From positions 310,001 through 374,000 of the forward strand of contig NZ_JACJTV010000001.1 in the NCBI RefSeq assembly GCF_014698845.1: a stretch of DNA of 64,000 nt. The letters run 5' to 3'. This document shows positions 41,378-44,672 of this stretch, in pieces (the first letter of the stretch is position 1; each line of letters begins with the position of its first letter). The translations under genes and the position numbers were made by a program. The notes beneath the pieces were generated by a model. That model did not search any database and had not been told where the DNA came from. It saw nothing but the letters and a program-made list of their open reading frames with translations. The DNA is from Coleofasciculus sp. FACHB-1120 (GTDB lineage: Bacteria > Cyanobacteriota > Cyanobacteriia > Cyanobacteriales > FACHB-T130).

Positions 41378-41599
41378 GGGAAATTGGCTGTTTTGTTCTG
41401 ATAATGCGGATTTTCCTAATACCCATACAGAGAGAATAACGGAAGCATCCCCTGAACTGCGCTTTTCCGGCTCTTGGGGTAGGCGTTCTCTTTGCTGCTC
41501 GTTTTTCCCATAAATTTAATAATTCCTTGGGTTCAAATTAGAAAAAATAAATACAATAAGTATAAATACATATTCAACCGAAAAAGGTTGGAGTTAGCC

Positions 41600-42220
41600 A
41601 TGAACAATGTGCAGTACGCTTTTGTACTTCGACGACTGGCTACTATTTTGGCTGTAGCGATTTTGTCTTTGAGCCTGACAGCAGCCGTCACCGGAATTCT
41701 TCTATCTTTCTACTACGAACCGACCGCAGGTGGAGCTTATAATTCCTTGAGGGAAATCAAATCAGAGATTCCCAATGGTTGGCTAATTCAGCGTCTCCAT
41801 GAGATTGCTGGAAATGGATTAATTGGGACTTCTCTGATAGCGATCGTTGTGATGTTTCTCGGTGAAAAATTTCGCCGAAGCTGGCTGACCGCTTGGATAA
41901 GCGGAATTTTACTTACTTTGGTAGCGATCGCGCTTGGTTGGACTGCCATGCTTCTCGATTGGACACAGTTAGGGTACTGGCGTTTCACCATCGAATTAGG
42001 CACAGTAGAAGCCGTCCCTGGAATTGGTTCCCTACTCCGAGAAATCCTCACGGGGGGTGGAGCCATCAATACGGTAACAGTTGCCCATTTGTACACGTTG
42101 CATAGTTACATTCTTTCAATTGGGGCGCTGATTCTGGCAGTGATTCATCTCGGAGGACTATTGCTACAAGAAAAAGAAGAGAAGCAGACGCTGATAGAAT
42201 CAGAAGCAAAATTCAGCTGA
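41600..42220 (+). CDS. Cytochrome b6-like N-terminal-domain membrane protein
   Basis: A 206-aa protein with four transmembrane helices that aligns along its whole length with cytochrome b6: F-Y-Y-x-P-T, G-W-L-I-x-x-x-H, D-W-T-Q-L-G-Y-W, V-x-A-V-P-G-I-G, and Y-T-L-H-S-Y-I-L. Of the four haem-ligand histidines of b6, three are recognisable (R-L-H, T-L-H and V-I-H-L), but the position 14 residues after the first His is Ala instead of His. The protein is therefore unlikely to bind the second b-haem in the usual way. GGAG at 41590-41593 supports ATG 41600. The next gene, a FAD oxidoreductase, starts 36 bases later and is likely co-transcribed. It is not petB, which is more conserved and would be linked to petD. 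Confidence 0.85.
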   Translation: MNNVQYAFVLRRLATILAVAILSLSLTAAVTGILLSFYYEPTAGGAYNSLREIKSEIPNGWLIQRLHEIAGNGLIGTSLIAIVVMFLGEKFRRSWLTAWISGILLTLVAIALGWTAMLLDWTQLGYWRFTIELGTVEAVPGIGSLLREILTGGGAINTVTVAHLYTLHSYILSIGALILAVIHLGGLLLQEKEEKQTLIESEAKFS

Positions 42221-42256
42221 CATACATCTAAATCACCCAAAAAAACTCAAACGTCT

Positions 42257-43738
42257 ATGTCCGTCCCTCACCAACTGGCGGTTGGCAGCAATAGACAAGC
42301 CATTGTCATCGGTGGCAGTATGGCTGGGCTACTGGCAGCGCGAGTGCTTGCCGAACGCTTTGATCAAGTGACGATGATTGAACGCGATCGCATCCCAGAC
42401 AAATCAGAGACGCGCCGAGGTGTACTCCAAGCCCACCAAGCTCACGTTCTGCTGTTGCGGGGTCAGCAGATTTTGGAGCAAATGTTTCCTGGATTGGCTG
42501 CTGAATTATCGGCTGCTGGCGCTACTGCTTTGGACTGGACGTTAGACTGTCCCATGCTAGATTTTGGCGGTTGGGCACCCCGCTTTTCCTCCGGACTGGT
42601 GACTCGTGCTTGTAGCCGGAACCTCTTGGAGTGGACGATTCGCCGCCGACTGGCTGCTTACAGCAATGTACGCTTTCTGGAAGAATGCCAAGCAACCGAG
42701 TTGTTGTCCGACACCAGCAAAACTAAGGTGACGGGCGTACAGGTGCAATTTCACAACCACGGGCAAAACACTAGCGCCGCAGATGTAGAGACGCAAAATT
42801 CCGCGTCTCTAGCAGCCGATCTGGTCGTGGATGCAACTGGACGGAATTCCAAAACCCCTGAGTGGTTAAAGGCATTAGGTTACACACCGCCTCAAGAGAC
42901 AGTCATTAACTCATTTTTAGGCTACGCCAGCCGTTGGTATCAGCGCCCAGCTGATTTCCAAAGCGATTGGAAATCAATCGTGGTGTGGTCTAAACCTGGG
43001 GAAAACTCTCGCGGTGGGCTGCTTTATCCCTGTGAGGGTGACGCTTTTGTGATTACCCTGGCTGGTTTGGGTCGAGACTATCCACCCAGCGACGAAGCTG
43101 GCTTTTTGGAATTTGCCCGCAGCTTGCGATCGCCGATTCTCTACGAAGTCGTCAAACAAGCCCAACCGATTTCACCCATCTACTGTCATCGCGGCACAGA
43201 AAACTGCCTGCGCCACTACGAACAATCGAGATTGCCAGAAAACTTTGTCGTCTTAGGCGATGCCGTCTGTTCCTTCAATCCTATCTACGGTCAAGGTATG
43301 ACCGCCGCGGCGATGGCTGCATTAACCCTGGAGGAGTGCTTGAAAGAGCAATTTCAGCGTCACTCTCAAGACGATTTAACGGGTTTAACGCGGCGTTTTC
43401 AAAAGCAACTGGCTAAAGTGAATCATATCCCTTGGCTGATGGCGACCGGCGAGGATTTCCGCTGGCCTACGACCGAGGGCGGTCAAGCCGATCTGAAGAC
43501 CCGATTTATGCAACGGTATCTGGATCGTGTGAGGTTAATCACGGTTGAGAGTCCCGTAGCGTTCAAAGTTTTCATAGAAGTGCTGCATCTGCTGAAACCA
43601 CCCACCGCCTTTTTTCAGCCTCGTATCTTAATGCAAGTGCTAAGGCAGGTAATCACTCGGCGTCAGCAAGATCAACCGAATGCTAATGAACTATCTCTTC
43701 CGAAGCTGCCGTCTTCTGCTGTTGATTCGTTAACCTGA
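42257..43738 (+). CDS. FAD-dependent oxidoreductase (aromatic hydroxylase-like)
   Basis: A 493-aa flavoprotein of the p-hydroxybenzoate/UbiH-like class. The N-terminal Rossmann motif reads V-I-G-G-S-M-A-G-L-L-A-A-R-V-L (about 17-31), a G-G-S variant of GxGxxG, followed by the acidic end of beta-2 in M-I-E-R-D. V-V-D-A-T-G-R and V-L-G-D-A-V-C-S-F-N-P-I-Y-G-Q-G-M are the FAD-binding ATG and GD motifs. No signal peptide. The substrate is unknown; relatives hydroxylate or oxidise quinones and isoprenoids. It sits 36 bases after the cytochrome-b-like gene, which could supply or take electrons, and before an epoxide-hydrolase-like gene. A short palindromic repeat lies inside the frame. Confidence 0.85.
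   Translation: MSVPHQLAVGSNRQAIVIGGSMAGLLAARVLAERFDQVTMIERDRIPDKSETRRGVLQAHQAHVLLLRGQQILEQMFPGLAAELSAAGATALDWTLDCPMLDFGGWAPRFSSGLVTRACSRNLLEWTIRRRLAAYSNVRFLEECQATELLSDTSKTKVTGVQVQFHNHGQNTSAADVETQNSASLAADLVVDATGRNSKTPEWLKALGYTPPQETVINSFLGYASRWYQRPADFQSDWKSIVVWSKPGENSRGGLLYPCEGDAFVITLAGLGRDYPPSDEAGFLEFARSLRSPILYEVVKQAQPISPIYCHRGTENCLRHYEQSRLPENFVVLGDAVCSFNPIYGQGMTAAAMAALTLEECLKEQFQRHSQDDLTGLTRRFQKQLAKVNHIPWLMATGEDFRWPTTEGGQADLKTRFMQRYLDRVRLITVESPVAFKVFIEVLHLLKPPTAFFQPRILMQVLRQVITRRQQDQPNANELSLPKLPSSAVDSLT
42787..42810. repeat. Palindromic repeat inside the FAD oxidoreductase gene
   Basis: AGAGACGC (42787-42794) and GCGTCTCT (42803-42810) flank an 8-base loop. It encodes roughly V-E-T-Q-N-S-A-S-L in a variable loop, and shares the AGACGC/GCGTCT core with the intergenic hairpin at 19150-19168, so it looks like a dispersed element tolerated in the reading frame. 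Confidence 0.6.
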
Positions 43739-43799
43739 AGAGTGTTCGCATCGGCGATGAATCGCCGATGCCATGACTACAACAGCAAAGGAGGTATCT

Positions 43800-44672
43800 A
43801 TGTCTGTGCTAGAGGGTTCTTGGAAGCACGAATATATCACCAGCAACGGAATTAAGCTGCACTACGTCACCCAGGGAGAAGGCCCTTTGATGTTGATGCT
43901 GCATGGGTTCCCAGAATTTTGGTACTCCTGGCGGCATCTAATCCCCGAATTTGCTAAAGATTATAAAGTCGTCGCCCTTGACTTGCGCGGTTATAACGAC
44001 AGCGATAAGCCAGCAGACCAATCGGCTTATGTGATGGATGAATTTATTAAAGATGTTGAAGGGGTAATTCAGGGGCTGGGATACTCTAGCTGCGTGCTGG
44101 TGGGTCATGACTGGGGGGGCGCGATCGCTTGGAATTTTGCCTACGCATTCCCCACGATGGTAGACAAGTTGATTGTCCTAAATCTGCCTCACCCTGCCAA
44201 ATTTGCCGAAAATATGCGTAATCCTCAACAACTATTACGCAGTTCCTATATCTTCTTTTTTCAGCTACCGTGGCTACCAGAATTTCTCTTACAATCCTTC
44301 GATTACCAATCGATTGAAACGGCTATCACGGGTATGGCTGTTAATAAGAATGCCTTCACCAAAGCCGATCTGGATGCCTATAAACAAGCTGCTGCAAAAC
44401 CCGGTGCCCTGACAGCCAGCCTGAACTATTATCGCAATCTTTTTCAGCAGAGAATGCTCAGTCAAGATTGGAGTATTCTCCAGGTTCCTACGCTAATGAT
44501 TTGGGGAGAGCAAGATACTGCACTTGGTAAAGAACTGACTTACGGAACTGAAGCGTATGTCAAAGACTTTACGATTAAATACATTCCCGACTCTAGTCAT
44601 TGGGTGCAGCAAGAGAAACCGCAACTGGTCACTCAATATATGCGAGAGTTCCTTTCAGCTACCAACAGCTAA
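43800..44672 (+). CDS. Alpha/beta hydrolase, epoxide-hydrolase-like
   Basis: A 290-aa alpha/beta-fold enzyme. H-G-F-P-E-F (35-40) forms the oxyanion hole, the nucleophile is Asp104 in V-G-H-D-W-G-G, the acid is in W-G-E-Q-D-T-A-L-G, and the catalytic His is in D-S-S-H-W-V-Q. An Asp nucleophile and H-G-F-P place it with epoxide hydrolases and haloalkane dehalogenases rather than serine esterases. The start ATG 43800 is supported by a complete Shine-Dalgarno, AAAGGAGGT (43787-43795), unusually strong for this window. A small hairpin (43750-43769) lies between it and the FAD gene 61 bases upstream. Its substrate may be made by that oxidoreductase, which is inference. Confidence 0.88.
   Translation: MSVLEGSWKHEYITSNGIKLHYVTQGEGPLMLMLHGFPEFWYSWRHLIPEFAKDYKVVALDLRGYNDSDKPADQSAYVMDEFIKDVEGVIQGLGYSSCVLVGHDWGGAIAWNFAYAFPTMVDKLIVLNLPHPAKFAENMRNPQQLLRSSYIFFFQLPWLPEFLLQSFDYQSIETAITGMAVNKNAFTKADLDAYKQAAAKPGALTASLNYYRNLFQQRMLSQDWSILQVPTLMIWGEQDTALGKELTYGTEAYVKDFTIKYIPDSSHWVQQEKPQLVTQYMREFLSATNS

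Follow-up and report, generated by a model that had tools for sequence, protein, structure and literature searches.

In the textbook picture, electrons cross bioenergetic membranes by way of two b haems held in a single four-helix bundle. In cytochrome b6 (PetB) the ligands of these haems are His86, His100, His187 and His202, and Cys35 serves haem c(n), in the numbering given in PMC5730185. The consequences of losing a single histidine from a similar bundle have been described for mutants of Rhodobacter capsulatus cytochrome bc1. According to PMC8138165, the mutant H198N, in which a ligand of haem b(L) is replaced by asparagine, bound a high-spin, high-potential haem and did not turn over. For H212N, which lacks a ligand of haem b(H), PMC4807273 uses the term haem b(H) knock-out; it also reports that His-Lys ligation is tolerated in bc1. 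Another described protein that comes into consideration is ExtP, a b-type cytochrome of a selenite/tellurite reduction operon (NF040969). It is of similar length to the protein discussed below and is its best match among the NCBIfam models, but the score of 106.1 bits is far under the curated cut-off of 290. The protein belongs to a family of which we found no description in the open-licence literature.

The window, as we call the whole stretch of DNA analysed, comprises 64,000 nucleotides of Coleofasciculus sp. FACHB-1120. On its forward strand an ATG at position 41600 opens a reading frame of 206 amino acids (41600-42220). The translation contains the motif DWTQLGYW and three haem histidines, His67 (codon at 41798-41800), His168 (42101-42103) and His183 (42146-42148), just as an earlier note on this DNA had claimed, and the spacing of 36 bases to the next gene on the same strand is also as stated there. 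The note had further placed an alanine 14 residues after the first histidine, where b6 has its second, and residue 81 is indeed Ala, encoded by GCG at 41840-41842. The family profile aligns with cytochrome b6 of 1vf5 without gaps (E 2.8e-36), and in this alignment positions 67, 81, 168 and 183 correspond to b6 residues 86, 100, 187 and 202. His67 and His168 are the counterparts of the haem b(p) ligands; Ala81 stands where a haem b(n) ligand has been lost, and His183 is the other b(n) ligand, left without its partner. No other His fits this position, for there is none within residues 76-90 of the window protein.

The protein exceeds the cut-off of Pfam PF00033, the cytochrome b N-terminal domain (88.8 bits against 27.2), and stays below that of the NCBIfam cytochrome b6 model NF002990 (98.6 bits against 325). 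Its AlphaFold model (pLDDT 89, pTM 0.82) finds cytochrome b6 of 2e74 as the best PDB match (Z 19.4, rmsd 2.9 over 186 residues), and a Foldseek search returns 7r0w (E 5.4e-9). As far as a predicted structure can tell, this is a stand-alone protein with the b6 fold, and it has three of the four histidine ligands of PetB. Its likeness to PetB consists in the four-helix fold, the gapless profile match, the p-side haem ligands and the motif of the C-D loop. Unlike PetB, to which identity is about 26-33%, the family has neither the second n-side histidine, nor the cysteine of haem c(n), nor the n-side Gly, Arg and Arg-Lys residues, nor a petD nearby. Ahead of the gene, the leader (41545-41596, forward strand) carries a GTATAAATAC box and, at 41575-41590, a small hairpin; it is partly common to close relatives, and these features were recognized by eye and by consensus match only. 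At locus L114 the letters of the hairpin stem differ and the pairing is kept, also by eye. Scans of the sequence for promoters and terminators gave no more matches than in shuffles.

How widespread is such a protein? A scan of 388 genomes of the class found the family at 82 places, counting the window, which are spread over 79 genomes; 81 of these places were aligned. The E-values leave a clean gap: the family extends down to 1.9e-59 and the next matches, at the level of true PetB, start from about 1e-28. As a second set we took relatives from GTDB genomes, the best 80 of 219; this set overlaps the first and the counts are not pooled. A quick tree was built from 107 rows (92 family members, 7 PetB and 8 other cytochromes b). 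In it a branch with SH-aLRT 100 separates the family from all other rows, and so from the true PetB of the window's genome. The tree program flagged long branches, so that the family's position among cytochromes b is tentative. The window protein lies in this clade, with a residue other than His at 81 and with His67, His168, His183 and the family residues Arg128 and Glu132 all present. Its genome carries a paralogue (L002/L036) that has Glu81 and is 73% identical to it.

The earlier note had left it to be checked whether the loss of the ligand is conserved. It is: histidine occurs at position 81 in none of the 81 aligned members and in none of the best 80 of the 219 relatives. The 81 members have Gln in 72 cases, Glu in 6, Asp in 2 and Ala in 1, the last being the window alone; the best 80 of 219 have Gln (73) or Glu (7). 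L257, the weakest family place and outside the 81, has Gln as well. The other ligand positions are nearly constant in the 81 members (His67 81/81, His168 80/81 with Asn in the one exception, His183 81/81) and less so in the best 80 of 219 (79/80, 72/80 and 75/80 respectively). From these alignments, the missing ligand is a family trait; it is not a sequencing error, and it is not confined to one member. Ala81 itself is private to the window, the family norm being Gln; on the tree, position 81 requires at least six changes. One might take the uniqueness of Ala81 among the 81 as a sign that the gene in the window is decaying or has been misread. We regard this as highly improbable. The reading frame is intact, and Trichocoleus L113, at 85% identity the nearest among the best 80 of the 219 relatives, has Glu81 encoded by GAA. 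Since GAA is two base changes away from GCG, a read error in the window is unlikely, and comparison with L113 gives a dN/dS of about 0.1 with dS near 1. The private codon lies within GCGATCGT (41840-41847), which shares 7 of 8 letters with GCGATCGC. The latter is the HIP1 octamer, common in cyanobacteria, and the spread of this motif may be the source of the Ala81 change.

The loss of the ligand does not stand by itself. If helix direction is used to separate the p-side half of the protein from its n-side half (a split of our own making), conspicuous changes are found in the n half. The position of the haem c(n) cysteine (Cys35 of b6) is residue 16, and it is Cys in 17/17 PetB and in 0/81 family members (3 gaps). 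Likewise present in all 17 PetB and in no family member are the helix-A Gly at 19 (1 gap; 71 members have Val), the helix-B Arg at 84 (76 have Val), Arg at 188 and Lys at 189 (Arg in 2). The helix-A Gly is replaced by Val, Ile, Met or Leu and the helix-B Arg by Val, Ile or Leu; we take these lost Gly and Arg residues to be ones that hold or contact the n-side haem. Mean identity of the family to the 17 PetB is 0.324 in the p half and 0.208 in the n half. For 16 further cytochromes b, from the phylum but not from the class, the values are 0.375 and 0.350, a comparison that is not a pure di-haem control, as 14 of the 16 keep all four histidines and two are without b(n) ligands. Within the family, identity is near equal in the two halves (0.604 and 0.587). 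Given that the halves are equally conserved among members and that the n half is far from PetB, we conclude that the n half was rebuilt and has been conserved since, and is not decaying. There are also new invariants: Arg128 and Glu132 occur in 81/81 members, where 17/17 PetB have Ala and Val. W114, T115, W121, Q123 and W127 are invariant in the 81 members too, and residue 163 (codon at 42086-42088 in the window, His) is typically His in the family (His 74, Arg 7; n=81) and Arg in 17/17 PetB.

Our preferred reading, to which we give a probability of roughly 0.5, is that these proteins are stand-alone cyanobacterial paralogues of b6 that keep only the p-side bis-His haem, between His67 and His168, have a rebuilt n side and exchange electrons on the p side. 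Judged from the ligands, the protein would most likely contain a single b haem, low-spin and on the p side. The old haem b(n) site would have become a polar pair, Gln81-His183 in most members, with Glu or Asp for Gln in some; the window copy with Ala81 would be a local variant. If the n-side haem is absent, electrons could not cross the membrane, and a protein that works without subunit IV and the Rieske protein would not carry out bifurcated quinol oxidation. What could remain is exchange on the p side with plastoquinone/plastoquinol or with a small lumenal carrier, the weakest step of the proposal. The C-D loop is the p-side quinone region in b6f. Conservation of this loop in the family suggests p-side quinone, carrier or redox-sensing chemistry, and Arg128, Glu132, Trp121, Gln123 and Trp127 might form the exchange site. 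The protein could then act as a redox buffer, a sensor or a side route.

Among the points against this reading is His183, which is kept in 81/81 members though its partner is gone, and for this reason the n site perhaps still binds something. The main alternative, which we doubt, is that there are two haems, the n-side one being five-coordinate or ligated by His and Gln (Glu, Asp) through His183, high-spin and reactive with quinone, oxygen or NO. The residue opposite His183 is polar in 80 of 81 members, and the bc1 work on asparagine in place of a b(L) ligand (PMC8138165) and on His-Lys ligation (PMC4807273) provides precedents for haem in an altered site. However, the changes of the helix-A Gly, the helix-B Arg and the Arg-Lys pair resemble a filled pocket, Asn183 is found in 5/80 (best 80 of 219) and the window itself has Ala81. 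A bundle without b(n) ligands has arisen at least once elsewhere. L255 and L256, each an additional cytochrome b gene of its genome, come from two genomes of a different class within the phylum and have lost b(n) ligands, as the family has; they differ from it in having both b(n) histidines replaced (by Arg and Tyr), in their 447-aa reading frames and in adjoining another cytochrome b gene. These neighbouring copies (L253 and L252) keep all four histidines, so that here we see a second, separate loss of the b(n) site.

Further ligands have gone in some family members. Among the best 80 of the 219 relatives, 13 have lost another histidine (H168N in 8, H183N in 4, H67Y together with H183N in 1), and judged by their record titles these are all of Nostocales type: Nostoc, Nodularia, Tolypothrix, Cyanocohniella and Roholtiella. 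Because of these 13 and the one of the 81 with Asn168, a p-side bis-His haem cannot be universal in the family. On the tree, at least four changes at His168 and at least two at His183 are needed, all in one Nostocales clade. Judged from substitution rates, the family is under purifying selection: dN/dS is 0.05-0.23 in 15 hand-picked pairs, with dS from 0.95 to 1.8 in the three pairs that include the window, so that their ratios are rough. Eight pairs in which both members are without a ligand are still constrained (dN/dS 0.10-0.23). Such constraint, together with the clustered ligand changes, would fit a haem-free or haem-indifferent membrane scaffold with the b6 fold, perhaps quinone-binding or regulatory. 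A further point in favour is that 10 of 81 loci, which all belong to one clade, have a PadR-type regulator gene immediately before the cytochrome gene and in the same orientation. One of them is L108 (8866-9204), the only locus in which the assignment was checked with Pfam. The gap from the PadR gene to the cytochrome gene is 1 base in five of the 10 loci, the predicted ORF starts overlap in three, and two give no usable figure. The PadR-linked members have an N-terminal extension of about 100 residues, which in L108 appears, by eye, to include an extra hydrophobic helix. We think a scaffold unlikely as the general explanation, for the near constancy of His67 and His168 reported above, in the 81 members and in the best 80 of 219 alike, would make little sense if most members had no haem.

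The lost ligands need not mean lost haems. H168N would be the same change as bc1 H198N, if the b6 alignment and the ligand order can be transferred to bc1 (numbering from PMC8138165 and PMC5730185). Since the H198N protein keeps a high-spin haem, the haem at a site that has lost a ligand may be altered and not absent. The difference is that the bc1 mutation is described as abolishing turnover (PMC8138165), while the family changes are natural and occur in genes under purifying selection. A more adventurous suggestion would be that an n-side high-spin or His/Gln (Glu, Asp) haem was rebuilt for new chemistry and that the repeated ligand-to-Asn change in Nostocales took place under selection. We consider this rather improbable; if true, it would offer a natural series of stepwise haem-ligand loss that matches the ligand-to-Asn changes made by hand in bc1.

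Could the protein be an alternative subunit of a b6f-like complex, paired with subunit IV? Its predicted b6 fold would allow this, and its genome does contain a second complete petD, for subunit IV with PEWY (contig C52, L209:1306-1791), 83% identical to the petB-linked petD. No petB lies beside this second petD in the L209 stretch, and the preceding gene is AraC-like by eye. As a dedicated subunit IV it was rejected, for its distribution does not follow that of the family: about 9/388 genomes have two or more petD matches, and of the 79 genomes with the family only 3 do. Nor did any of the loci examined show a petD homologue close to the family gene (0/82 family loci and 0/80 loci of the best 80 of 219 GTDB relatives). 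Moreover, the side of the protein that has changed is the n side, which in b6f holds haems b(n) and c(n). An association of this kind is therefore very unlikely. The view of the earlier note that the protein is not part of the b6f complex holds in the sense that it is not an ordinary b6f subunit: a true petB adjoining petD is found elsewhere in the genome, the family forms a separate clade, and there is no petD nearby.

The earlier note had also proposed that a one-haem carrier serves the FAD enzyme encoded by the next gene. That gene (42257-43738, forward strand) does give FAD-binding Pfam matches and appears to be FAD-dependent monooxygenase-like; it is followed by an alpha/beta hydrolase gene (43773-44672, forward strand). 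Besides the shared strand and the short gap, the proposal can draw on the genome-level counts, and this part of the co-occurrence check stood: FAD homologues are present in 36/79 genomes with the family and in 33/309 without it (Fisher p 3.3e-11, uncorrected for ancestry and genome size). Large genomes and shared ancestry could be the source of this association. The other part did not stand. No homologue (E 1e-6) was found near the family gene in any of the 81 other family loci (about 8 kb on each side, less at contig ends), nor near the loci of the best 80 of 219 GTDB relatives (about 6 kb; the sets overlap). The arrangement in Trichocoleus L113 is instructive. As in the window, a gene of the EAL/GGDEF kind precedes the cytochrome gene and the alpha/beta hydrolase (84%) follows it, here after about 110 bases, but there is no FAD gene between cytochrome and hydrolase. 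In L117 and L118 the hydrolase is about 2 kb upstream of the cytochrome gene and no FAD-gene homologue was found near it. From this gene order the hydrolase looks like an older neighbour than the FAD gene, whose best homologue in the other scanned genomes is 59% identical. Partnership with the FAD enzyme thus finds no support in gene order, the uncorrected co-occurrence notwithstanding; the gene is probably a chance neighbour, and we attach very little weight to the carrier model.

No conserved operon partner that would hint at the function emerged across the family loci (n=81). The commonest neighbours in the 81 loci, apart from the 10 PadR-type genes, are a convergent Na+/H+ antiporter (16), a lipase-like gene (15) and a ClC-like gene (7, by eye). 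In Nostoc PCC 7120, alr0252 is described as a Na+/H+ antiporter in PMC10406281; our guess from gene order is that the gene beside it is a family member. In eight loci (L043, L047, L048, L050, L057, L066, L069 and L071) petJ-like, petE and psbV genes lie 2-7 ORFs, or about 2.5-5.2 kb, upstream. A Pfam check was made for L043, and we do not count this linkage as functional.

Whatever these proteins do, they are found in about a fifth of the scanned cyanobacterial genomes (79/388), under selection, with the bundle kept and the n-side site given up. This suggests that the b6 fold has taken on a different role in cells that also contain the true b6f complex. The natural ligand variants, with Gln, Glu, Asp or Ala at position 81 and Asn on helix D, are material for studying what the second haem is for.
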